Source: Chryseobacterium indologenes (GTDB lineage Bacteria; Bacteroidota; Bacteroidia; Flavobacteriales; Weeksellaceae). From it: a stretch of DNA of 64,000 nucleotides. Both the position numbers and the translations under genes were made by a program. This document shows, piece by piece, positions 1,951-46,779 of this stretch (position 1 is the stretch's first letter; every line of letters starts with the position of its first letter). The notes beneath the pieces were generated by a model, which saw only the letters and a program-made list of their open reading frames with translations, did no database searches and was not told the DNA's origin. The stretch is taken from the NCBI RefSeq assembly GCF_018362995.1, contig NZ_CP074372.1, positions 4,944,468-5,008,467 of the forward strand, given 5' to 3'.

Positions 1951-2083
1951 TGGCCAATTTCACAAATCAGCACTATTTTTCAACATCTATAAGGTTTTGA
2001 AAACCTTTGATTTCCAAATTATGAAACGGTTTAGATTCTATGGGATTTAAATGTTCTGATAATTATGATACTATTTAAACTAA

Positions 2084-2114
2084 AAACCCAGTTTCAATTA
2101 TTGAAACTGGGTTT
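2084..2114 (-). terminator. terminator of lipB
   Basis: A perfect stem AAACCCAGTTTCAA / TTGAAACTGGGTTT with a 3-base loop is followed on the minus strand by a short T run. It lies 22 bases downstream of the lipB stop. Confidence 0.8.
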
Positions 2115-2135
2115 ATTATATTTTAAGTCAATTGA

Positions 2136-2864
2136 CTATTTGTAAATGAGTTCTGCCTGGAAAACGTCTGCAAAATGTTTTCTGATCTTTGCTTTCAGTT
2201 CTTCCATTTCTTCCGGAGTAAGCTCTCTTTCAAGTTCTCTTTTCAGAGAAGTCACCTGCTTATCTTTGATACCACATGGAATGATGTATTCAAAATAACG
2301 CATATCCGTATTTACATTCAATGCGAAACCATGAAGAGTTACCCATCTTGAAGCTTTTACACCCATCGCACACATTTTTCTGGCATAAGGTTTCCCTACA
2401 TCCAGCCATACTCCTGTTTCTCCCGGAGAGCGCTCACCTTTAATGCCGTATTCTGCAATCGTTCTGATGATTACTTCTTCCAGATTTCTCATGTATAAAT
2501 GAATGTCTGTAAAAAAGTTCTCAAGATCCAGGATAGGATAGCCTACAACCTGTCCGTAACCGTGATAAGTAATATCTCCGCCACGGTTTACCTTTACGAA
2601 AGTGGCATCAATCTCTTTCAGTTTATCAAAGCCGGCAAGCATATTTTCTTCGTGTCCGCTTTTTCCTAAAGTATACACATGAGGATGCTCTACAAAAAGA
2701 AGGTGGTTGGGAGTGGTTGTATGCTGTTCTGCAGGAAGATCTCTGTTTTTTATCTTGGTATCAATGATATTTTTCATCAGCTGCTCCTGATAATCCCAGG
2801 CTGGCTGATATTCTTTGACCCCTAAATCTTCAAATTCTACTGATTTATTTTGATTTGTATTCAT
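2136..2864 (-). CDS. lipB: lipoyl(octanoyl) transferase LipB
   Basis: It transfers octanoyl from octanoyl-ACP to lipoyl domains of 2-oxoacid dehydrogenases and GcvH, the first step of de novo lipoate attachment in the cytoplasm. The 242-residue protein carries the family signature RGGDITYHGYGQ (94-105), the active-site Lys170 in MGVKASRWVTLHGFALN and catalytic Cys197 in IIPCGIKDKQVTSL. Length is normal, with a short N-terminal extension. It lies 31 bases after trpA on the same strand and could share the end of the trp transcript; its own terminator follows. Confidence 0.96.
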   Translation of the reverse strand: MNTNQNKSVEFEDLGVKEYQPAWDYQEQLMKNIIDTKIKNRDLPAEQHTTTPNHLLFVEHPHVYTLGKSGHEENMLAGFDKLKEIDATFVKVNRGGDITYHGYGQVVGYPILDLENFFTDIHLYMRNLEEVIIRTIAEYGIKGERSPGETGVWLDVGKPYARKMCAMGVKASRWVTLHGFALNVNTDMRYFEYIIPCGIKDKQVTSLKRELERELTPEEMEELKAKIRKHFADVFQAELIYK

Positions 2865-2895
2865 TTCAATTTTTGATATACAAATTTAGTGAATT

Positions 2896-3639
2896 TTACC
2901 CTTTTATGGAATGGATAAAATCTATGGCACTTTTCTTCCAGTCTCTATCCTGAAGCAGAATATTCACAAAGGCTGTTCCTATGATACCGCCATCCGCTTT
3001 TTCCGTTACATTTTCAAAATCCTCTTTCGATTTAATTCCAAATCCGATCATCACAGGATTTTTGAGTGGGAGGGAAGCTACCCTGGAAAGGTAGTTTTCA
3101 TTTTTTAAAACCGCATTTTCATTACCCGTTGTAGAGGAAGAGCTTACTGCATACAGAAAACCTGAACTTAGAGAATCAAGATACATCATTCTTTCATCAG
3201 AGGTTTCCGGAGTCACCAGAAAAGTAAAGTTAAGATTGTACTGCTTTAAAACAGACTGATAATTTTTCTCAAACTCAATAGGAGGAAGATCCGGAAGAAT
3301 CAACCCTGAAACACCGCTTTCCGAACATGCTGCACAGAATCTCTCAAATCCAAAACTCAAAACAGGATTGATATAACCCATAAGGATAATGGGAATTCTG
3401 ATTTCGTCTTTGATGGCTTTTAACTGAGATAGTAACTTTTCAATCGTCATTCCGTTTTGTAAAGCCAGTTCATGAGCCTTCTGAATCACCGGTCCGTCCG
3501 CCACAGGATCAGAATAAGGCATTCCGATCTCGATCATATCTGCTCCGGAATCCTGAATCAGTTTTATAATATCAGCAGTATCTTCCAGTTGTGGAATTCC
3601 TGCGGTGAAGTATATATTTAGTTTTTTCATTTCTTTCAT
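2896..3639 (-). CDS. trpA: tryptophan synthase alpha subunit
   Basis: It cleaves indole-3-glycerol phosphate to indole and glyceraldehyde-3-phosphate, passing indole to the beta subunit. The 247-residue TIM barrel keeps the catalytic acids in MIEIGMPYSDPVADGP (Glu37 and Asp48, equivalent to Salmonella Glu49 and Asp60) and the phosphate-binding loops GFGIKS and GIIGTAFV. The first codons read MKEMKKLNIYF, so initiation at the second Met (base 3630) is equally possible. It is the last trp gene of the operon, 93 bases after trpB; that gap holds only AT-rich sequence. Confidence 0.96.
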   Translation of the reverse strand: MKEMKKLNIYFTAGIPQLEDTADIIKLIQDSGADMIEIGMPYSDPVADGPVIQKAHELALQNGMTIEKLLSQLKAIKDEIRIPIILMGYINPVLSFGFERFCAACSESGVSGLILPDLPPIEFEKNYQSVLKQYNLNFTFLVTPETSDERMMYLDSLSSGFLYAVSSSSTTGNENAVLKNENYLSRVASLPLKNPVMIGFGIKSKEDFENVTEKADGGIIGTAFVNILLQDRDWKKSAIDFIHSIKG

Positions 3640-3732
3640 TTCTTTCTTTTTTGTATTGATGTATTGGTGTAAAATGTATTTATGACCAGGTTTTATCTGT
3701 TAACATCATTTTACGTGAATACTTTTTACATT

Positions 3733-4911
3733 TTATAAATTCTTCAGATACGTTTCCATATCCTTATCTCCACGGCCACTCAGACAAATGACAACAACAT
3801 CATTTTCATTAAATTTCTTCTTGTCCAGAACAGCCAGCGCGTGAGAGCTTTCCAATGCCGGAATGATTCCTTCCAGTTTGGTCAGCTCGAAAGCACATTT
3901 CAAAGCTTCATCATCATTAATACTAAAGAATTCAGCACGTTTTTCTTTAAATAAATGCGCATGAAAAGGCCCGATCCCCGGATAATCCAATCCTGCAGAG
4001 ATAGAATGGGGTTCAATGACCTGGCCGTCTTCTGTTTGCATCACAAGGCTTTTACTTCCGTGAAGTACTCCAAGAGTTCCTAGGAAAGTAGTTGCCGCAG
4101 ATTTTCCTGAATCTACCCCCAATCCTCCTGCTTCTGCAGCAATGATTTTTACTTCTTTTTCCTCTACAAAATGATAAAAAGTCCCTGCCGCATTACTTCC
4201 ACCCCCTACACAGGCAATCACATAATCAGGATTTTCTCTTCCGATTTTCTCTTGAAGCTGCTCTTTGATTTCTTTTGAAATAATGCTTTGAAATCTTGCC
4301 ACAAGATCCGGAAATGGATGAGGACCTACCACGCTTCCAATCACATAATGAGTTGTCTGAGGATTGTTGATCCAGTCTCTTAACGCTTCATTCACTGCAT
4401 CTTTAAGTGTTTTTGATCCTGAAGTGGCTGGCACAACTTCAGCACCCAGCATTTTCATTCTTGCAACATTCGGGGCTTGTCTCTGGATATCAATTTCTCC
4501 CATGTAAACAATACATTCCAAACCAAGCAAAGCGCACGCTGTAGCGGTGGCAACACCATGCTGTCCGGCTCCGGTTTCAGCAATAATTCTGGTTTTTCCA
4601 AGACGTTTTGCTAACAGAACCTGTCCCAGAGCGTTATTGATCTTATGAGCTCCGGTATGGTTGAGGTCTTCCCGTTTTAAATAAATCTGAGTCTGGTATT
4701 TCTGACTTAGGTTTTTAGCAAAATATAAAGGAGTAGCACGGCCTACATAATTTTTCAGCAAATCCTGATACTCAGCCTGAAAATCTTCAGATTCTATAAT
4801 TTCAAGATAGTTTTTTTGCAATTCTTCTACATTAGGATAGAGCATTTCGGGGATAAAAGCACCTCCAAACTCTCCATAATATCCGTTTTCATCGGGGTTT
4901 TTATAATTCAT
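3733..4911 (-). CDS. trpB: tryptophan synthase beta subunit
   Basis: This PLP enzyme condenses indole with serine to give tryptophan. The 392-residue product has the PLP lysine (Lys90) in [12 protein letters not shown], the glycine-rich phosphate loop [10 protein letters not shown], the substrate loop [12 protein letters not shown] and the N-terminal [12 protein letters not shown], all typical of TrpB1. Four bases separate its start from the end of the acetyltransferase gene, so it is translated from the same operon. Nothing unusual is seen in the catalytic core. Confidence 0.97.
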
Positions 4912-4915
4912 TTTT

Positions 4916-5461
4916 TTATTCTTTAGTAATTAAATAAGCATTATTCTGTGCGCTTAGCTGATTAAGCAGTTCTTTGGTTTCCTTTGATGCATTAAAAATC
5001 AAAATATCATCGTCTTCAGAGTTAATCCATTCCGATCCGATACTTTCTTTGATCATTTTAGCTTTGTCATGAAGAATTTCAATTGAACACTTTTCATAAA
5101 AAAGGCGGAGATCCGAATGGCAGAAACCAATAGTATCCAAATTTCTCTGAATAACATTTTCTTTGAAATGACGAACTAAAGCAGCTCCATACCCTTTCTT
5201 TTTATGAGCAGAAACAAGTCCTACAGCTTCCGCAAAAGAATAATCAGTGCCGGCTATTTTTAACGTAAAATCAAAATTGACACGCATCAATGCCAGAATA
5301 TTTTCATCGGTATCCAGTATAAAATGAAATTCAGAATCTTTGAAAAAAGTCCGGAAATAAGCAGACTTCATGCTGTTCCAGGCAGAAATATCCCAAAGCT
5401 GTAAGATATGTTCTATCTCATTTTCCGTTAAATCTTTCGTCTCCTTTACTTGATATTTCAT
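4916..5461 (-). CDS. GNAT-like acetyltransferase inside the trp operon
   Basis: The 181-residue protein shows the acetyl-CoA binding element of GNAT enzymes, [21 protein letters not shown] (variant of V-x-x-x-x-R/Q-x-x-G-x-G/A), preceded by a beta-strand stretch and followed by [19 protein letters not shown], where the second half of the fold is expected. The substrate is unknown. Its ATG overlaps the stop of the preceding hypothetical gene by 4 bases (ATGA), and trpB follows after 4 bases, so it is translationally embedded in the operon. It is not a standard trp gene. It may modify an amino acid or a small molecule, but nothing in the sequence shows which. Confidence 0.75.
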
Positions 5462-5970
5462 GAGTTTAAGCTATTAATAAATGTAAGATGATAATCGTAT
5501 TGTTGTTTGGTAATCAGTTTTTTATAATGTAATAATTCTATTTTATGCATTAAATCAATTAATGTTGCTTTATCTATTTTGGATTGATACATGGTAATTG
5601 CAATTTCCAGATTGTCAATCATATAATAAGAATCAGAGTCTTCATACAGCAGAAATATTTTAGCATAAATCAATCCTAAGTCATATTTTATAACTGATCT
5701 TACGTGGCTATCCAGAAACTTATCCGAAATAATAACAAGATAATAGCTGTTCCACAAACTGATTCTTTCAAAAAAGTACTGGATATCGGTTTCCTGAAAA
5801 TCTTTGATGATTTCAATGAATTCAGACAATAATCCACCAACTTCCCAATGCTCTATATTGCTGTCATTCTCAGCTACAAAATGATACAGAGCCTGGATTT
5901 TTTCATTCCCAAATTTAGGAGGAAACAGGGTTTTATAAAATGTCTTTTTTAGCAAATGTATGTTCATCAT
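5458..5970 (-). CDS. hypothetical protein between trpF and the acetyltransferase
   Basis: This is a 170-residue protein of no family I recognise. It has no signal peptide or membrane segment. It is predicted mostly helical and rich in Ile, Leu, Tyr, Asp and Phe (for example YFFERISLWNSYYLVIISDK), which suggests a helical bundle. Its 3' end overlaps the acetyltransferase start by 4 bases and its start is 26 bases from trpF, so it is co-transcribed in the trp operon. The coupling to the acetyltransferase suggests that the two act together, but this is inference. Confidence 0.65.
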   Translation of the reverse strand: MMNIHLLKKTFYKTLFPPKFGNEKIQALYHFVAENDSNIEHWEVGGLLSEFIEIIKDFQETDIQYFFERISLWNSYYLVIISDKFLDSHVRSVIKYDLGLIYAKIFLLYEDSDSYYMIDNLEIAITMYQSKIDKATLIDLMHKIELLHYKKLITKQQYDYHLTFINSLNS

Positions 5971-5996
5971 TGTGTCTTTTTAGGGGTTATATCTTT

Positions 5997-6689
5997 TTAT
6001 TGATATAGGTTTTTAAACTTTTTTATCCGGTCAATATTTTTATTTCCAGGCTCTATTTCAAATTTTGAATTGATATCTAAAGCAAAAGGCTGCTGTTGTA
6101 AATCTTCAATATCTCCAATATTTTCTTCTGAAATACCACCACTTAAAAAGTAGGGCAGTGGAATCTTAAGATCGTTCAGCAAAGTCCAGTCAAACTGTTT
6201 TCCCGTGCCACCGAATGCTTTCCCGTCTGTATCAAACAAATAATAGGTGATAGGTGACAGGTTGCAGGTTTCAGATTGCTGACTGAAAGTTTGCAGTATT
6301 TTATTTTTGGTTGCTGAATCATTGTTTCCTATCCTTATCACTTTAATGATCTTGACTTCGGGATCCAGTTTTTGTCTTAATCCAGCAATGAAACGATAAC
6401 TTTCGTCGCCATGAAGCTGTACAAAATTCAATCCTGCTTTTTGAACAATCTGTAGAATGACCTCTGCTTTTTCGTTTACAAAAACACCAGTTTTTCCCTG
6501 ATGATTAATGGCAGAGATTTCTTCCAGGTTCAGATGATTCAAAACATATCTCGGTGATTTTTCATAAAAGATAAAGCCAAGAAAATCTACGTTCATTGCC
6601 ATCAGCTCTTGAATCTGGCTTAATTGCGTTAAGCCACATACTTTGAGTTTGGGAGTGCTGATAGGTTGCAGGTTCATTTCAGGTATCAT
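5997..6689 (-). CDS. trpF: phosphoribosylanthranilate isomerase with two repeat-derived insertions
   Basis: It converts phosphoribosylanthranilate to the enol form of carboxyphenylamino-deoxyribulose phosphate. Family landmarks are LKVCGLTQ (15-22, catalytic Cys18), VQLHGDE (90-96), LFDTDGKAFGGTGKQFDW (catalytic Asp153) and LSGGISEEN. At 230 residues it is longer than the usual ~205. The excess is a 12-residue N-terminal extension (MIPEMNLQPIST) and a 14-residue insert (135-148) before LFDTDG. Both are encoded by 7-bp-period DNA like that in the intergenic repeats, and removing them restores a normal length. The insert precedes a catalytic loop, so activity is probable but not certain. It lies 8 bases after trpC. 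Confidence 0.93.
   Translation of the reverse strand: MIPEMNLQPISTPKLKVCGLTQLSQIQELMAMNVDFLGFIFYEKSPRYVLNHLNLEEISAINHQGKTGVFVNEKAEVILQIVQKAGLNFVQLHGDESYRFIAGLRQKLDPEVKIIKVIRIGNNDSATKNKILQTFSQQSETCNLSPITYYLFDTDGKAFGGTGKQFDWTLLNDLKIPLPYFLSGGISEENIGDIEDLQQQPFALDINSKFEIEPGNKNIDRIKKFKNLYQ
6246..6287. repeat. 7-bp-period degenerate repeat inside trpF
   Basis: Six consecutive heptamers can be read: GGTGATA, GGTGACA, GGTTGCA, GGTTTCA, GATTGCT, GACTGAA. The tract is 42 bases, a multiple of 3, so it adds 14 residues without a frameshift. It has the same character as the intergenic tracts at 34380-34488 and 63270-63453. Confidence 0.7.
6655..6689. repeat. 7-bp-period repeat at the trpF start
   Basis: The heptamers TAGGTTG, CAGGTTC, ATTTCAG and GTATCAT cover the first codons of trpF. 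The tract encodes the N-terminal extension that precedes the conserved LKVCGL strand, and it appears to supply the start codon. Confidence 0.55.
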
Positions 6690-6697
6690 TTTGTCTA

Positions 6698-7471
6698 TTA
6701 AATTTGTACTGAAAAGTCTTCAAATGCTTTAGCCGGATTTGTATTTTTCATAAAATATTCTCCCATCAGGAAGCCGTCAAATCCTTTTTCTTTTAAAAAC
6801 TGAAAATCTTCAAGGTTATAAATACCGCTTTCCGCTACAGATAAAACTTCTTTTGGAAGCAGGTTTTTCAGCTGAACAGAATGTTGCAGATCCACTTTGA
6901 AGTCTTTAAGATTTCTGTTGTTGATTCCTACAAGATCAATTTTTGAATTACAATGTTTCAGTTCATCTTCCGTATGAATTTCCAGTAAAACTTCCATTTT
7001 CAGTTTATGGGCAAGATCTGTAAATTCTTCTACCTGAGCGGATGAAAGACAGGAAGCGATCAGTAAAATGACATCAGCACCAATACTTTTAGCTTCATAA
7101 AACTGGTATTCATCAATCATGAAATCTTTTCTCAGAATCGGAATGTTAATATCATTTCTTACACTTACAATATCATTTAAGTTTCCTCCGAAAAAATCAT
7201 GATCAGTCAGAATAGAAATTCCACTGGCTCCAAAATTTTCGTATGCTGAAACCACTTCTAAAGGTTCTACATTATTGTTTATGATTCCTTTTGAAGGAGA
7301 TTGTCTTTTAAATTCAGCGATAATTCCGCTTTTATTTTTGATGGATTCTTTCAGAGAATGGGTTTTCCTTCCAAAAAAGGCTGTGCTCTTTAACCGGTCA
7401 AGAGATATGCGTGATTTTGCCCCGGCAACTTCCTCTTTTTTTCGTTCAATAATTTTATCAAGTATGGTCAT
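6698..7471 (-). CDS. trpC: indole-3-glycerol phosphate synthase
   Basis: It closes the pyrrole ring to give indole-3-glycerol phosphate. The 257-residue TIM-barrel protein shows the N-terminal ILDKIIERKKEEVA, the catalytic lysine loop IIAEFKRQSPSKG, PILRKDFMIDEYQFYEA, LLEIHTEDEL, the substrate-binding VGINNRNLKDF and VAESGI. All are standard for TrpC, and it is not fused to TrpF as in enterobacteria. It follows trpD after a 183-base gap and precedes trpF closely in the same operon. Confidence 0.97.
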   Translation of the reverse strand: MTILDKIIERKKEEVAGAKSRISLDRLKSTAFFGRKTHSLKESIKNKSGIIAEFKRQSPSKGIINNNVEPLEVVSAYENFGASGISILTDHDFFGGNLNDIVSVRNDINIPILRKDFMIDEYQFYEAKSIGADVILLIASCLSSAQVEEFTDLAHKLKMEVLLEIHTEDELKHCNSKIDLVGINNRNLKDFKVDLQHSVQLKNLLPKEVLSVAESGIYNLEDFQFLKEKGFDGFLMGEYFMKNTNPAKAFEDFSVQI

Positions 7472-7479
7472 TTGATACA

Positions 7480-7640
7480 GAATTTAATAAGATGATAAAA
7501 ATGATAAACCATTAAGGGATATTAAGATGATAAGATAAATTAAGTTCCATCAAAGATGGAGAATGAAGGATGTCGCTAAATAAATAGCTTTAGCCATGAT
7601 CTTAACTATTCTTCACCACTTAAAAATTCTTAACGGTTAA
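7480..7640. repeat. degenerate AT-rich repeat in the trpD-trpC gap
   Basis: The 183-base gap has no open frame. It contains loosely repeated words (AAGATGA, TTAAGAT, GATAAGA, TTCTTAA) that often recur at about 7-base spacing, a weaker version of the heptamer tracts elsewhere in the window. I see no promoter or terminator in it. Confidence 0.35.
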
Positions 7641-7654
7641 AAAAAATAATAAGA

Positions 7655-8686
7655 CTAATTAATTAAAAGATTAAAACTTTTCAACGCTTTTCCACTTTGC
7701 AGACTTTCCTGAGCTAAAAGAAGACAATCATTATATGTTCCAAATTGGTGAGTATTGTACAGCGCTACTGAAGCATTGGCCAGAATCACAGAATTTTGTT
7801 GTTCCGTACCGTTTCCTTCCAGGATATTCATAAATATTTTTGCCGTTTCCTGAACAGAGCTGCCAGCTTTAATATCTTCCAGCGTTACCGGATTGAAACC
7901 TAAATCTTCAGCAGAATAAATTTCTTCTCCGTTTTTTGTTATGATTTTGCTGTCGTCGGTAAGACTTATTTCATCATATCCGTCAAGGCCATGTACCAGA
8001 ATAAACTCACGTTCCTCTTTTTGAAGGAGGTACTGATAAATTCTTGCAATTTCCAGATTGTATACCCCAATCATTGAATATTTGGGTTTTGCAGGATTAA
8101 CTAATGGTCCCAAAAGGTTAAAAAATGTTCTTAATCCCAAAGATTTTCTCAATAATCCAACAGATTGAAGCGCGGGATGAAAATAAGGAGCATGTAAAAA
8201 GCAGATATTGGCTCTTTCAAGGTCTTCATTCAATTGTTCCGAACTGTTTTTGAACTGATAGCCCAATTCTTCCAGTACATTGGATGAGCCTGTGATAGTG
8301 GAAGCTCCGTAATTTCCATGCTTGGTTACCTTCTGCCCGGCTCCGGCCACCACAAAGCTGGCTAATGTTGAGATATTGATAGTGTCTTTTCCGTCGCCTC
8401 CCGTTCCCACAATGTCAATGGCGTCACTGGCATCTATATCTGCAGGAACAGCCATCTGCAGCAGAGCCTCTCTGAAGCCTTCCACTTCCTTCAGAGTAAT
8501 ATTTCTCATCAGGAAAACACTGATAAATGCAGTAACTTCTGCGGAATTGAACTTATTCTGTGCAATTTCAATCATGGTAGCCTTAGCTTCTGATTTTGAA
8601 AGTGTATTATGGTTGAACAGGTATTGCAGTATTTCTTTCATTTGTGGCGTTTTTATTGTTGTTGATGGGATTTCAAGTGTTTTCAC
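7655..8686 (-). CDS. trpD: anthranilate phosphoribosyltransferase
   Basis: It joins anthranilate to PRPP. The 343-residue protein has the PRPP/pyrophosphate-binding loop IVGTGGDGKDTINIST (92-107), KHGNYGASTITGSSNVLEELG, the anthranilate-site segment FLHAPYFHPA, and RTFFNLLGPLVNP, all diagnostic of TrpD. Its start overlaps the trpG stop by 4 bases, which indicates translational coupling. The N-terminal helical domain (residues 15-75) is complete. Confidence 0.97.
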   Translation of the reverse strand: MKTLEIPSTTIKTPQMKEILQYLFNHNTLSKSEAKATMIEIAQNKFNSAEVTAFISVFLMRNITLKEVEGFREALLQMAVPADIDASDAIDIVGTGGDGKDTINISTLASFVVAGAGQKVTKHGNYGASTITGSSNVLEELGYQFKNSSEQLNEDLERANICFLHAPYFHPALQSVGLLRKSLGLRTFFNLLGPLVNPAKPKYSMIGVYNLEIARIYQYLLQKEEREFILVHGLDGYDEISLTDDSKIITKNGEEIYSAEDLGFNPVTLEDIKAGSSVQETAKIFMNILEGNGTEQQNSVILANASVALYNTHQFGTYNDCLLLAQESLQSGKALKSFNLLIN

Positions 8687-9282
8687 GATAAAAGAAAGTT
8701 TTTAATGATTACTTCTCCTTCGGGTGTTAAAATACTCTCAGGATGGAACTGTACTCCGTGTACATCATAGGTTTTGTGCTGTAAAGCCATGATCATTCCG
8801 TCTTTATCTACAGCTGTGATTTCCAGTTCCTCCGGGAAACCTTCAGGATTTACTGCCCAGCTGTGGTATCTGCCTACTTCTAATCCGGAATGCAAATCTT
8901 TGAATAATTTAGTATTTTCTTTTACCAATTCAGTCGTGGTTGCTACTCCGTGGAAAATTTCAGCCAGGTTAATAAGATTTCCTCCGAAAGCTTCAGCAAT
9001 AGCCTGCTGTCCGAGACATACTCCCAGGATACTTTTTTTAGGGGCATATTCTTTAATAAGGTCTAATAAAATGCCTGCTTCCTCAGGAATTCCAGGACCT
9101 GGAGAGAGAATGATCTTGTCATACTTTCCAATTTCTTCCAGAGTAATTTCATCATTTCTTACCACATCCACTCTTTGATTCAGAATTCTTTCAATAATCT
9201 GGACCAGGTTATAAGTGAAGCTGTCGTAGTTATCAAATACGAGAACTTTAAGGGGCTGCTGCGTGTTTATATTGTTGTTCAT
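8683..9282 (-). CDS. trpG: anthranilate synthase component II (glutamine amidotransferase)
   Basis: It supplies ammonia from glutamine to TrpE. This class I glutamine amidotransferase of 199 residues has nucleophile Cys89 in ILGVCLGQQAIAEAFGG, the oxyanion segment LSPGPGIPEEAG and the His-Glu pair in VQFHPESILT near residue 178. It is a separate protein, not fused to TrpD or TrpE. The TrpE-type partner upstream and the tight coupling to trpD favour TrpG over PabA, though a shared role in folate synthesis cannot be excluded. Confidence 0.95.
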   Translation of the reverse strand: MNNNINTQQPLKVLVFDNYDSFTYNLVQIIERILNQRVDVVRNDEITLEEIGKYDKIILSPGPGIPEEAGILLDLIKEYAPKKSILGVCLGQQAIAEAFGGNLINLAEIFHGVATTTELVKENTKLFKDLHSGLEVGRYHSWAVNPEGFPEELEITAVDKDGMIMALQHKTYDVHGVQFHPESILTPEGEVIIKNFLLS

Positions 9283-9304
9283 TTCTTTTTTGTTAGGTTG
9301 TTTT

Positions 9305-9346
9305 GCTAGTTGCTAGTTGCTAGTTGCTAGTTGCTAGTTGGTAGGG
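9305..9346. repeat. heptamer array GCTAGTT x5 between trpE and trpG
   Basis: Five perfect copies of GCTAGTT (9305-9339) are followed by the decayed unit GGTAGGG. It occupies most of the 70-base trpE-trpG gap and is a candidate for copy-number variation by slippage. Confidence 0.9.
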
Positions 9347-9352
9347 CTTATT

Positions 9353-10777
9353 TTATTTTTCAACTATTTTTTCTGCTTTTTCCACTGCTTTTTTCAGTGC
9401 ATTCAGCTTGTTATTGACTTCCTGCAGTTCATTTTCCGGAACCGATTTTGCCACAATACCGGCACCAGCCTGATAAAAGAGTGTATTGTTTTTACTTAAG
9501 AAAGTTCTGATCATGATGGCCTGGTTGCAGGTTCCGTTCAATCCGATCATTCCTATACAGCCACCATAATACCCGCGGGAGTCTTTTTCGTATTGATTAA
9601 TAAGTTGAAGCGCTTTATGTTTCGGAGCTCCACTCAGTGTGCCCTGAGGGAAGGTTGCAGATACCATTTCAAGAGGGTTGATATCTGTGGAAACATCGGC
9701 TGTTACTTCACTTACCATATGAATAACGTGAGAGAATAGCTGAATTTCTTTAAGCTTGGTCACCGTTACATTTTTTCCGAGTTTTCCAAGATCATTTCTT
9801 GCCAGGTCCACCAGCATGGTATGTTCTGCATTTTCTTTAGGATCAGCTTTTAATTCTTCAATAGCCTGAAGATCAGTCTCAAAGTTTCCTGTTCTTTTAG
9901 ATGTTCCGGCAATCGGGTGGATGATTGCTTTATTGTCTTTTATAATTAATTGGCTTTCAGGACTAGATCCGAATAATTTATAATTTCCGTAATCAAAATA
10001 GAAAAGATACGGAGAAGGGTTGATATTTCTTAAAGCACGGTATACATTGAATTCATCTCCCTTGAATTTCTGTTCAAACCTTCTGCTCAGAACAAGTTGG
10101 AAGACATCGCCACGCATACAGTGTTTCTGGGCTGTTTTTACCAACTCTCTATACTCTTCATCAGTAATATTAGACGTTTCCTCATCTGTTTTTTCGAAAG
10201 GATACACCGGAGTATTCTGATTTTTAATAAGGTTTTCCAACAGATGAAACTCGGATTTTACGCCGTCAATAGAATTTTCAATGATATACATTTCATCGTT
10301 GAAATGATTGATCGCAATTACATATTGATATAATCTGTATCTCAGAACAGGAATTTCAACTTCCTTACTTTGTGCTTTAAGATTGATCTTTTCGAAAAAC
10401 TGTACCGCTTCAAAGCTTGTATATCCAAAAAGGCTCTGGGCGGTTTGTTCTATAGGATCGTTGGTTTCTTCACATTTAAAAATTTTCCTGAATTCTTCAA
10501 ATATATCTGTGATATTGCGTTCCATCATGAATTGCTTTACAGGAGCAGAAGCAGGAAGCTTGATTTCATATTCGTTGAGGTTTTTTACTTCAATTCCTGC
10601 AATGGCATTTACAGCGATGAAGGAAAAGTTGTTATCAATACTTTTTGAATCCGAGCTTTCCAGAAGAATGGTATCGCGGAATTTATCTCTGATTTTAAGA
10701 TAAATATTCATGGGCGTGTGAAGATCTCCCAGTATTTTTTTCGAAACAGTTTTTATTTTAATTGTATCAGTATGCAT
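9353..10777 (-). CDS. trpE: anthranilate synthase component I
   Basis: It makes anthranilate from chorismate with ammonia from TrpG, and it is the first enzyme and normal feedback target of the pathway. The product is ~474 residues. The C-terminal chorismate-binding domain shows KHCMRGDVFQLVLSRRF, SPSPYLFYF-like NPSPYLFYFDYG, HPIAGTSKRTG, AEHTMLVDLARNDLG and FPQGTLSGAPKHKA. The N-terminal half has LLESSDSKSIDNNFSF, the region of the Trp-inhibition site. I start it at MHTDTIKI: the longer frame from a TTG at 10831 would read through the attenuator hairpin. The leader peptide and terminator upstream regulate it. Confidence 0.95.
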   Translation of the reverse strand: MHTDTIKIKTVSKKILGDLHTPMNIYLKIRDKFRDTILLESSDSKSIDNNFSFIAVNAIAGIEVKNLNEYEIKLPASAPVKQFMMERNITDIFEEFRKIFKCEETNDPIEQTAQSLFGYTSFEAVQFFEKINLKAQSKEVEIPVLRYRLYQYVIAINHFNDEMYIIENSIDGVKSEFHLLENLIKNQNTPVYPFEKTDEETSNITDEEYRELVKTAQKHCMRGDVFQLVLSRRFEQKFKGDEFNVYRALRNINPSPYLFYFDYGNYKLFGSSPESQLIIKDNKAIIHPIAGTSKRTGNFETDLQAIEELKADPKENAEHTMLVDLARNDLGKLGKNVTVTKLKEIQLFSHVIHMVSEVTADVSTDINPLEMVSATFPQGTLSGAPKHKALQLINQYEKDSRGYYGGCIGMIGLNGTCNQAIMIRTFLSKNNTLFYQAGAGIVAKSVPENELQEVNNKLNALKKAVEKAEKIVEK

Positions 10778-10802
10778 TTTGTTTTTTTGTAAGATTAAAG
10801 AA

Positions 10803-10836
10803 TAAAAAAAGGCTTCAACGGTATCCGTCAAAGCCT
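10803..10836 (-). terminator. trp attenuator (rho-independent terminator in the leader)
   Basis: On the minus strand AGGCTTTGACGG and CCGTTGAAGCCT form a 12-bp stem (two G-U pairs) with a 3-base loop, followed directly by seven T residues. It lies between the trp leader peptide and trpE, 26 bases upstream of the trpE start. An alternative pairing is visible: GGTATTGTCA upstream (10879-10888) can pair with TGACGGATACC (10820-10830), destroying the terminator stem. Confidence 0.9.
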
Positions 10837-10869
10837 ATATATTGTTTTTTGATTATTTCTGCTGTATGA

Positions 10870-10938
10870 TTAGCAACATGACAATACCTTCAGACCCGAC
10901 GAAGAGTTTGAAAGCCACCACCAAATATTGTTGCTCAT
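10870..10938 (-). CDS. trpL: trp leader peptide with three consecutive Trp codons
   Basis: This is a 22-codon open frame, MSNNIWWWLSNSSSGLKVLS plus two Cys, then TAA. Three adjacent TGG codons lie at 10915-10923. It precedes a strong terminator and the trpE start, the arrangement of classical ribosome-mediated attenuation. ACAATA, at the codons just before WWW, can pair with TATTGT in the antiterminator strand. A ribosome stalled for lack of Trp-tRNA would therefore mask region 1 and favour read-through. The pairing model is by eye; the codon run and terminator are plain in the sequence. Confidence 0.88.
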   Translation of the reverse strand: MSNNIWWWLSNSSSGLKVLSCC

Positions 10939-10951
10939 TTTAAACATGGGA

Positions 10952-10959
10952 CAAATGTA
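10952..10959 (-). promoter_or_regulatory. -7 box of the trp operon promoter
   Basis: On the minus strand TACATTTG matches the Bacteroidota -7 consensus TAnnTTTG and lies 13 bases before the leader peptide ATG. The nearest TTTG upstream (10975-10978) is 15 bases away rather than ~19, so the -33 element is uncertain. Confidence 0.55.
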
Positions 10960-11022
10960 GAAAATTTTTTAATACAAAAACTAAAAAATAGTAAAAATTA
11001 AAAAACTTAATATAAGAATCTC

Positions 11023-11664
11023 CTATTTAAGCTGTTTAAGCTCAAGTTGTAATTCTTTGATTTTCTCTTTGTAAGCTTTATCATCATAGTATTTTACATA
11101 CTCTTCCAATGCCGCAATGTATTCTTCAAGGAATTCTTTATTGGTTCTGTCTGCTTCATATTTGATTTTTGCAGAGTTGACGGGGGCTTGCTTTTCATAT
11201 TGTCGTAAAATCTTGCCTTCTCTGGACTGATCATAAAGAATAACTATGTTCTTTTCATATCCGGGAATGTATTTTACAGGAATATCCTTATCATCAGGTA
11301 TTCTGATTGAATTGCTGATAGGATAGATTACAGCAGAAGTGGTGGAGAAAAAGGTTGTGGTGTATTTTCCGTCCTGTTTCCTTACAATGGCTTCATAATC
11401 ATGGATAAACATTTCGTTTAGGGTGGAGTTGGTTTCTACATCAGATGTGATGATTGCTATGCTTTCCACTCCGTATTTATTTAAAAACCATGCATTTAAA
11501 AACTGTCCTCCAATCCCGTTTAATATTGCCAGAGGAATGATCGGGATCAAAAACCATGCTTTTTTGGTCAGGTAAGAAAGTCCACCAAAGAATACCAGCA
11601 ACAGAATCACAGTATAAAAACCATGATGACTGGTAAAAAACAGAATTTTTGAAATTAAAACCAT
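11023..11664 (-). CDS. hypothetical membrane protein
   Basis: The protein has 213 residues and no recognised family. Two or three hydrophobic segments lie near the N-terminus (FYTVILLLVFFGGLSYL and AWFLIPIIPLAILNGIGGQF). A soluble beta-rich middle follows (IITSDVETNSTLNEMF to NIVILYDQS), and a charged, helical, probably coiled-coil C-terminus (FLEEYIAALEEYVKYYDDK and beyond). It lies alone between the trp leader and a short inverted-repeat element and shows no operon partner. Confidence 0.7.
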   Translation of the reverse strand: MVLISKILFFTSHHGFYTVILLLVFFGGLSYLTKKAWFLIPIIPLAILNGIGGQFLNAWFLNKYGVESIAIITSDVETNSTLNEMFIHDYEAIVRKQDGKYTTTFFSTTSAVIYPISNSIRIPDDKDIPVKYIPGYEKNIVILYDQSREGKILRQYEKQAPVNSAKIKYEADRTNKEFLEEYIAALEEYVKYYDDKAYKEKIKELQLELKQLK

Positions 11665-45371: not shown

Positions 45372-46679
45372 TTATAAAAAATCCGAGATTGAACGATCCT
45401 GCTGATCTTCAAATCTTCTGTTTTTCGATTCTCCGATTTTCTGTTGGGTATAAATACTGTTGTGTCCTGAAAGAAGATAAGATGCTACACAGGCAATAGC
45501 GACATAAACTCCACATTCTGCTCCGAATAATTCAATTCCCATCAGCATACAGGCTAGAGGAGTATTGGTTGCTCCGGCAAATACTGCTACAAATCCCATT
45601 CCTGCCAATAATCCGAATGGCAAAGGAATAAAGAGAGACAAAGCACTACCTAAAGTAGCTCCGATAAAGAACAACGGGGTAACTTCTCCACCTTTGAATC
45701 CTGCTGAAAGTGTAACAATAGTAAAAATCATTTTTAACGCAAAATCATACAAAGGAAGCTGTTTCTCAAAAGATTCCACAATCACAGGAACACCTAATCC
45801 GATATATCGGGTAGTACCCATCGCAAAAACTGCCATGGCAATAATAACTCCACCGACTACAGGACGAAGAGGCGGATATTTAATTTTTGATTTGAAAACA
45901 GAGCCTGCCCAATGAATAATCTTACTGAAAGCAGCAGCACAGACCCCGAAGATTATTCCTGCCAGAATACTGTATAGAATGGGTAAAAACTCCAGCTTAG
46001 GAATAAAGTCAATATGATAATGGGTATGTTTTACATTCCATAGATTTGTGGCCCAGTCCGCCAGAATAGCTGAAGCAAAAGCAGGGAATATCGCATTATA
46101 CCGTATTCTTCCGATCAGAAAAACCTCAAGTCCAAAAACAGCTCCAGCCAAAGGAGTCCCGAAAACAGAACCAAATCCGGCAGCAATGGCCGAAATAATC
46201 AATATTTTCCTTTCATTTCTGTCAAGTTTGAAAGGTCTGGTAAGCTGATCTGCTATAGCTCCTGCCATCTGAAGAGCTGTTCCTTCACGCCCTGCAGATC
46301 CTCCGAAGAAATGAGTTATCATTGTACCCAGATACACAAAAGGAGCCATTTTAAACGGAATAATTCCTTTGGGCTCATGAATGGTGTCAATCAACAAGTT
46401 GTTTCCAGCCTCAACATCTTTTCCAAAATAATAATAAAGAAGTCCTATCAGAAATCCTGCTACCGGAAGCAAAGCTATCAGCCAAAGATGGTTTTCCCTG
46501 AAATCTGTTGCCCATTCCAATGATTGCAGAAATCCTGCAGAAGCGGTTCCCACCAATGCACTGATAATGATGCTAATACATAACCATTTTAAAATATAAG
46601 GCAGAGCCGGAAATTTTCTGAAGAAAAAATGGGTGTGAAAAATTGCTTTTTTACCAAGTGTTCTTTGACTTTTTGACAT
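45372..46679 (-). CDS. CLC-F type fluoride/proton antiporter
   Basis: The 435-residue CLC channel/antiporter has about ten helices. The selectivity and gate segments read GGSAGREGTALQMAGAIADQ (GREGT rather than GREGP of chloride CLCs) and AGFKGGEVTPLFFIGATLGSAL. An early loop is AGNNLLIDTIHEPKG. This GREGT and NNL pattern is that of the CLC-F fluoride exporters. A fluoride riboswitch precedes the gene, so it should expel fluoride when intracellular F- rises. It has no partner genes. Confidence 0.9.
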   Translation of the reverse strand: MSKSQRTLGKKAIFHTHFFFRKFPALPYILKWLCISIIISALVGTASAGFLQSLEWATDFRENHLWLIALLPVAGFLIGLLYYYFGKDVEAGNNLLIDTIHEPKGIIPFKMAPFVYLGTMITHFFGGSAGREGTALQMAGAIADQLTRPFKLDRNERKILIISAIAAGFGSVFGTPLAGAVFGLEVFLIGRIRYNAIFPAFASAILADWATNLWNVKHTHYHIDFIPKLEFLPILYSILAGIIFGVCAAAFSKIIHWAGSVFKSKIKYPPLRPVVGGVIIAMAVFAMGTTRYIGLGVPVIVESFEKQLPLYDFALKMIFTIVTLSAGFKGGEVTPLFFIGATLGSALSLFIPLPFGLLAGMGFVAVFAGATNTPLACMLMGIELFGAECGVYVAIACVASYLLSGHNSIYTQQKIGESKNRRFEDQQDRSISDFL

Positions 46680-46683
46680 AATA

Positions 46684-46776
46684 ATCCTGATTAGTTATTT
46701 GTTAATAATCTTTTAATCAGGCGTCATCAGCTTTTGTAAAGCGGTTGGGTAAGGAAGAACACCATTTCCTTTGAGG
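46684..46776 (-). promoter_or_regulatory. fluoride riboswitch (crcB motif) with translation-type expression platform
   Basis: On the minus strand the aptamer reads GGAAATGGTGTTCTTCC, then CCCAACCGCTTT, and AAAGCTGATGACGCC, the order of conserved blocks in crcB-motif RNA (GG..ATGG.GTTC..CC, AACCGC, TGATGACGCC). Just after it, CCTGATTA (46714-46721) can pair with TAATCAGG (46686-46693), which contains the AGG just before the CLC start. With fluoride the CC would be held in the aptamer and the ribosome site freed. The mechanism is inference; the aptamer call is by sequence pattern. Confidence 0.88.
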
Positions 46777-46779
46777 GTA

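Follow-up and report, generated by a model that had tools for sequence, protein, structure and literature searches.

The trp operon of the window, that is, of the whole 64,000-nucleotide stretch analyzed here, is very likely controlled by a ribosome-mediated transcription attenuator in which a TTCGTCGGGTCTG × TAGGCTTTGACGGA duplex would serve as antiterminator and transcription would start at the leader ATG. The window belongs to a 5.0-Mb single-contig genome and, as judged from TrpE, its nearest named relatives are Chryseobacterium species. An attenuator had already been proposed at this place in the original prediction. It is still the best reading of the locus and is supported by the conservation of the Trp codon run and of the terminator, but the antiterminator named at that time is not retained.

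Organization of the trp Locus

The elements of the leader and of the operon that it precedes are listed in Table 1. The possible -33-like TTTG is recognized by reference to the general consensus for such elements. One of the distal genes is named trpB from its sequence and is presumably the tryptophan synthase gene of that name. Two ORFs located between trpF and trpB also appear to belong to the operon. One of them (4916-5461, minus strand) encodes a GNAT-like acetyltransferase and the other (5458-5970, minus strand) a 170-residue protein having no Pfam match.

Elsewhere in the window, a fluoride riboswitch (RF01734, 50.6 bits) is found at 46711-46778 on the minus strand, immediately ahead of a gene for a ClC-type channel (45372-46679, Pfam Voltage_CLC), which is likely a fluoride exporter under fluoride control.

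Table 1. Elements of the trp leader region and operon, in window coordinates.
Feature	Coordinates	Strand	Basis
Possible -33-like upstream element, TTTG	10975..10978	-	Sequence only
Promoter box (-7), TACATTTG (TAnnTTTG)	10952..10959	-	Sequence; spacing to ATG conserved
Leader ORF, 25 codons plus stop, MFKMSNNIWWWLSNSSSGLKVLSCC	10870..10947	-	ATG at 10947, stop at 10872-10870; predicted leaderless
TGG TGG TGG, proposed ribosome stalling codons	10915..10923	-	Present in 81/81 rows (by construction of the alignment)
Leader hairpin (1:2-like), with inner P1 hairpin 10914-10887	10872..10935	-	MFE fold; pairing across rows
Antiterminator 5′ strand (predicted), TTCGTCGGGTCTG, codon-invariant block	10891..10903	-	Pairing and codon conservation
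Antiterminator 3′ strand (predicted), TAGGCTTTGACGGA, terminator 5′ arm	10824..10837	-	Pairing conservation
Intrinsic terminator, AGGCTTTGACGG-ATA-CCGTTGAAGCCT, 12-bp stem, loop ATA, then T-run	10810..10836	-	Sequence, co-variation
trpE, first gene after the leader	9353..10777	-	Pfam PF00425 and PF04715 (Chorismate_bind, Anth_synt_I_N)
trpG, trpD, trpC, trpF, unknown ORF, GNAT-like ORF, trpB, trpA	2896..9282	-	ORFs; Pfam for trpG, trpD, trpC, trpF, trpA and the GNAT-like ORF

The Leader ORF and Its Start Codon

A short ORF containing three consecutive Trp codons precedes trpE at all 80 named loci of relatives, where it was found without anchoring on the Trp run. These loci are the best 80 of 375 encoding a relative; 79 of them are titled Chryseobacterium and one Weeksellaceae bacterium. 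The 81-row alignment used below was anchored on the TGG TGG TGG run, so that its presence in 81/81 rows is by construction. At the level of whole genomes, the core pattern TGGTGGTGGNNNTCNNNNTCNTCNTCNGGNCT was found in 147 of 149 Chryseobacterium genomes and in none of 147 genomes from elsewhere in the family. One of the two exceptions, L120, possesses the leader with one Ser codon missing. The other, G078, shows neither the leader core nor a full-length TrpE match, which may reflect a joint loss of leader and operon in this genome.

The TAnnTTTG box reported upstream of the leader is conserved in position: an in-frame ATG follows it after 4 nt in 80 of the 81 rows and after 2 nt in the remaining one. 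Counted from this ATG, the ORF is 25 codons long in 74 rows and 24 to 28 codons long in the others. The ATG at codon 4 (position 10938), from which the ORF had originally been read as 22 codons long, is present in 46/81 rows. Thus, the Trp run of the proposed ORF is confirmed but its length is not: the conserved start of the leader is the upstream ATG.

The sigma-A box of F. psychrophilum was positioned at -12 to -5 (PMC9723704). Taken together with the 4-nt gap between box and ATG, this spacing would place +1 on the A of the ATG. From its sequence, the trp leader transcript probably begins on the leader ATG and would, in other words, be leaderless. Outside Chryseobacterium, 31 of 48 leaders of the family have their nearest in-frame start 4 or 5 nt past the box. 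Such a gap is rarer further out (1/18 in the order sample, 4/33 in the class sample). Because the short gap is common in the family and rare in the order and class samples, the leaderless form seems to be characteristic of the family. At one locus, L185, the leader begins with GTG, 4 nt after TACATTTG, and Trp-Trp-Cys replaces Trp-Trp-Trp.

Distribution of the Leader in the Family, Order and Class

A Trp-rich short ORF (WW or WxW) accompanied by a terminator was found ahead of trpE at 50 of 57 loci in the family, 16 of 20 in the order and 38 of 49 in the class. The same criteria applied to dinucleotide-shuffled sequences retained 7/1140, 1/400 and 4/980, respectively. The occurrence of the leader in other taxa is not due to chance. 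The 57 family loci are those outside the named set, namely other genera plus one Chryseobacterium. The order count includes L261, where both a WWW leader and a terminator are present. The class sample (L207-L255) represents 49 of the 63 class genomes having a TrpE match; eight of the others were already in the other samples, two of them being Chryseobacterium, and six were left out.

No ORF and terminator of this description were retained at L138, L185 and L202-L206 in the family, at L160, L164, L166 and L168 in the order, and at L208, L209, L211, L214, L215, L217, L222, L234, L244, L249 and L251 in the class. L138 and L202-L206 all belong to genus g52; by eye, the sequence ahead of trpE in L138 reads like the end of trpB, and three of six g52 genomes have RF01692 matches located 1.2 to 2.9 kb ahead of trpE. 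Inspection of L185 revealed its GTG-started leader, and ORFs with Trp codons are present in L208 and L209, outside the criteria. Two tandem ORFs with Trp codons, with terminators, precede trpE at L158, L161 and L163.

In the genome carrying the window, a degenerate pattern for the Ser-Ser-Ser-Gly-Leu motif gave 8 matches vs 11 for the reversed control; of the seven matches beyond the leader, one was viewed and showed no second leader. A search of the same genome for a His-codon leader, using a five-His-codon pattern, gave 5 matches at 4 places, none of them leader-like.

Terminator and Leader Hairpin

The strong U-tailed terminator noted before trpE is well supported. Its 12 pairs, including 6 G-C, are the most found among the 11 terminator-like sites of region 2000-11100, where 6.4 sites are expected from shuffles. 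Across the rows, 98.0% of cells pair. Alignment of the relatives, which had been suggested as a check, shows that both the Trp run and the terminator are conserved, the latter with compensating changes: 40 cells are changed on both sides (33 + 7, in two pairs) vs 15.7 in shuffled alignments, a value reached in 0/500 shuffles. One terminator column is G or A, its counterpart on the 3′ arm being C or U, and the U of the codon-invariant block described below can always pair with it.

The leader hairpin has an MFE of -20.8 kcal/mol. It is not unusually stable according to the folding model (z = -1.32, 22/200 shuffles being equally good). Its cells pair in 95.1% of cases vs 94.4% after shuffling (0/500 reach), and 20 cells show double-sided changes vs 3.4 (0/500), 19 of the 20 belonging to a single pair. 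The inner P1 pair 10914-10887 breaks in 33 of 75 rows.

A Codon-Invariant Block Follows the Trp Codons

Mean column identity reaches 0.991 at alignment positions 34-57, from the Trp codons to CTG, vs 0.857 at positions 4-24 and 0.755 at positions 76-110. After the Trp codons, six degenerate residues are fixed, namely Ser, Ser, Ser, Ser, Gly and Leu. Five of them use a single codon in 81/81 rows and the sixth in 80/81. By way of control, a single codon is used at only one of the 232 such residues in trpE of the 80 named loci. Since the codons are fixed and not merely the residues, the constraint acts at the RNA level, and the peptide alone is insufficient to account for it. The invariance of the block would be explained by its pairing, as antiterminator, with the 5′ arm of the terminator.

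Identity of the Probable Antiterminator

In the conserved antiterminator predicted from these sequences, TTCGTCGGGTCT, located just 3′ of the Trp run, pairs with the terminator 5′ arm. In the window, the TTCGTCGGGTCTG × TAGGCTTTGACGGA duplex has a calculated energy of -12.5 kcal/mol. Over the 75 distinct rows, 98.4% of cells pair in the 12-pair helix, and 95.4% when all 13 antiterminator pairs are taken, vs 29.7 to 49.8% for slid versions of the pairing. Within Chryseobacterium, the block is nearly invariant; there are no double-sided changes, covariation is nil and shuffles are uninformative. Because the block varies so little within the genus, the pairing test was drawn from other genera.

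Using one representative for each of 19 genera of the family (L132 is absent, its terminator being unplaced), the cognate duplexes between the block and the 5′ arm plus loop have a mean energy of -12.78 vs -9.68 (sd 0.54) for permuted partners, and 0/20,000 permutations reach the cognate value. The cognate partner has a median rank of 3 of 19 and ranks first in five cases. In the class, 39 leader-terminator pairs from 38 loci, some of whose leaders are closely related and three of which (L207, for its first leader, L223 and L240) have doubtful leader or terminator calls, give -12.84 vs -9.72 with the 5′ arm, again with 0/20,000 permutations reaching the cognate value. As base composition could favor cognate duplexes, blocks were also shuffled. 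Compared with dinucleotide-shuffled blocks, the cognate block has p ≤ 0.05 in 12 of 15 leaders of a 15-genus family set, picked after looking at the 19-genus result, and in 16 of 39 class leaders. The antiterminator of the window itself is not exceptional in this comparison (p = 0.085). Cross-genus pairings can also be recognized by eye, as for UUCGCUGAGUCU × AGACUUCAGCGA (L122), GGUCAAGGUCU × AGACUUUGAC (L129) and UUGUCGGGUCU × AGACUUCGACA (L126). The duplex starts at a median of 11 nt (family) or 15 nt (class) past the last Trp codon, which is roughly where a ribosome stalled at the Trp codons would have its edge.

Pairing of the block with the terminator loop plus 3′ arm was also considered as a general antiterminator and was discarded, since 1782/20,000 permutations reach the cognate value over the 19 genera, i.e., chance level. 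The same pairing is above chance in the 39 class pairs (273/20,000 reach) and weak in seven f3/f4 leaders (705/20,000 reach; p ≤ 0.05 against shuffled blocks in 4/7).

A different antiterminator geometry is seen in family f3. In leaders L151, L152, L154, L156 and L157 and, in a shorter version, in L153, a post-Trp CGTCGTGA shares bases with the stop codon and has its complement in the terminator loop plus 3′ arm (TCACGAC). In L136 and L198, from genera g56 and g63, CGTTGGTTCG can pair with GAACCGACA, in the terminator loop plus 3′ arm, at -12.8 kcal/mol. This pairing resembles that of f3 and differs from that of most of the family.

Alternative Explanations

The same attenuator could work with the antiterminator of the original prediction, GGTATTGTCA × TGACGGATACC, but we consider this unlikely. 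The complementarity does exist in the window: ten pairs can form, and the best duplex of the segment, as in close relatives, has an energy of -11.1 kcal/mol. Moreover, 83.6% of cells pair vs 82.9% after shuffling, with 29/500 shuffles reaching this value. However, among 46 haplotypes the cognate duplexes average -5.80 vs -5.85 for permuted ones, 2998/5000 permutations reaching the cognate value, and the best duplex of the segment ranges from -1.4 to -11.1 over the 81 rows. The covariation score is reached by 147/500 shuffles, and double-sided changes number 7 vs 4.6 (59/500 reach). With permutation and covariation both at control level, this pairing was rejected as the conserved switch and is regarded as lineage-specific; it could supplement the conserved pairing in the clade of the window. 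GTATTGTCA, which lies outside the block, would matter for induction only if GGTATTGTCA × TGACGGATACC operates.

It is even less probable that the leader peptide itself is the object of selection, either as an arrest peptide or as a trans-acting product comparable to Sinorhizobium peTrpL, although WWWxSNSSSGL is nearly invariant in Chryseobacterium and a trans-acting trp leader peptide has been published (PMC7298713). Peptide-level selection was rejected as the main cause in view of the single-codon usage in the block, set against that in trpE: codons as well as residues are fixed after the Trp run. Furthermore, the RNA pairing persists in several further genera of the family in which the peptide past WWW is quite different or soon ends. 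As for a ligand- or protein-sensing leader (T-box, TRAP or riboswitch) in which the short ORF would be incidental, a structured leader and a terminator ahead of an amino-acid operon speak in its favor. TRAP-controlled trp leaders carry a run of (G/U)AG repeats. However, no Rfam match to a T-box or a riboswitch was obtained at the leader, the Trp codons are conserved and the duplex begins a short distance past them, so that such a leader appears highly improbable. We retain a ribosome-mediated attenuator using the TTCGTCGGGTCTG × TAGGCTTTGACGGA antiterminator.

A Model for the Attenuation Switch

From the sequence elements, their conservation and the cross-genus pairing, which are observed, we infer ribosome stalling, an order of folding, coupling with RNA polymerase and a response to Trp. 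Transcription would start at the leader ATG or within one base of it, and the 25 codons of the leader would be translated by a ribosome. A shortage of charged tRNA-Trp would stall this ribosome on the run of three Trp codons, with its downstream edge over CTTTCAAAC, which forms the 5′ side of the leader hairpin. The block TTCGTCGGGTCTG, then free, would pair with TAGGCTTTGACGGA, the terminator would not form and trpEGDCF..BA would be transcribed. When Trp is plentiful, the ribosome would reach the stop codon and leave. Then, the leader hairpin would reform and hold the block, and the terminator would form. The model predicts that a synonymous change of TTCGTCGGG would lower induction and that a matching change in the 5′ arm, with the 3′ arm adjusted, would restore it.

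Switching was evaluated on RNAs cut before the 3′ arm of the terminator, with an assumed ribosome footprint masked, by comparing equilibrium pairs and retaining differences above 0.5 pairs. With the footprint on the third Trp codon, more antiterminator is predicted than with the footprint at the stop codon in 12/15 family and 36/39 class leaders, and the reverse occurs in none; in three of the 15 family leaders the stalled state is not above the stop state. Compared with the ribosome-free RNA, the stalled state gives more antiterminator in 11/15 (less in one) and 36/39. The equilibrium fold of the window itself shows no switch, the expected antiterminator pairs being 10.7 in the ribosome-free state, 11.6 to 11.7 in the stalled state and 11.6 at the stop codon. 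In the absence of an equilibrium switch, the off-state of the window would have to rest on a leader hairpin forming earlier, i.e., on kinetics.

A wider proposal can be made, to which we attach about even chances: that in Weeksellaceae a fixed RNA block acts at once as codons, as part of the leader hairpin and as antiterminator, the leader being read from a leaderless AUG, and that trp operons of Bacteroidota are governed by ribosome-mediated attenuation. If true, this would represent strong indirect evidence of coupling between ribosome and RNA polymerase in Bacteroidota, at least over leaders. Bacteroidota form a phylum devoid of the usual Shine-Dalgarno sequences. If the leader works as proposed, it would offer a handle on transcription-translation coupling and on the way ribosomes start at leaders lacking a Shine-Dalgarno sequence in these bacteria. 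The analysis also provides a switch that can be tested at the base-pair level, corrects the antiterminator and extends the RF01692 family, itself a computational prediction, to a large genus that its model misses.

Relation to Known Systems

Tandem Trp codons and a 1:2 / 2:3 / 3:4 logic of pairing characterize the trp attenuator of E. coli (RF00513). The Chryseobacterium leader also has tandem Trp codons, but its start, unlike that of the E. coli leader, is predicted to be leaderless; the RF00513 Trp_leader model gives no match at the leader site. The trpLE(G) attenuator of Sinorhizobium meliloti (rnTrpL/peTrpL) is an alphaproteobacterial system. There, the leader ATG is also the point at which the transcript starts (PMC7298713). 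In that case the 5′ end was reported, whereas that of Chryseobacterium is deduced from sequence.

The original prediction also held that trp leaders are little documented in Bacteroidota. This view needs changing, as several sources already deal with such leaders or close counterparts. The Rfam family RF01692, Bacteroid-trp ("Bacteroidete tryptophan peptide leader RNA"), was introduced by Weinberg et al. 2010 (PMC2864571), and its presence ahead of trp has been mentioned for F. psychrophilum (PMC6414381). For the latter organism, leader-peptide attenuation of amino-acid operons was also inferred, from what were described as strong clues (PMC9723704); these attenuators belong to the same phylum and also concern amino-acid operons, but in another genus, and trp has 0 occurrences in the main text of that paper. 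In B. thetaiotaomicron, sORFs reminiscent of leader peptides were reported (PMC7366714). A search of open-access papers by title and opening of the abstract found none on a Chryseobacterium trp leader or on the TTCGTCGGGTCTG × TAGGCTTTGACGGA antiterminator, which is weak evidence of absence.

The RF01692 model has no match in the window, either at the gathering threshold (49 bits) or at E ≤ 10, and none at Chryseobacterium loci L002, L030, L050, L060, L070, L081 and L120. Of 292 family genomes, 41 (g45, g52, g55, g56, g57, g61 and g63) give a match at E ≤ 0.001, 28 of them above the cut-off; none is in Chryseobacterium (g1), in a search whose stricter filters may lose weak matches. Matches above the cut-off were also obtained at six f3 loci. 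The printed RF01692 consensus stops before the terminator loop of f3. Like RF01692, the Chryseobacterium leader precedes trp genes in Bacteroidota and comprises Trp codons, a leader hairpin and a terminator. However, in f3 and g56/g63 the post-Trp segment pairs best with the terminator loop plus 3′ arm, whereas in Chryseobacterium it pairs with the 5′ arm. Genus g61 is matched by RF01692 and yet pairs with the 5′ arm; the two forms thus grade into each other. The switch is therefore of a kind already known from RF01692, of which the Chryseobacterium leader is, by place and function, a divergent relative, and not a new kind.
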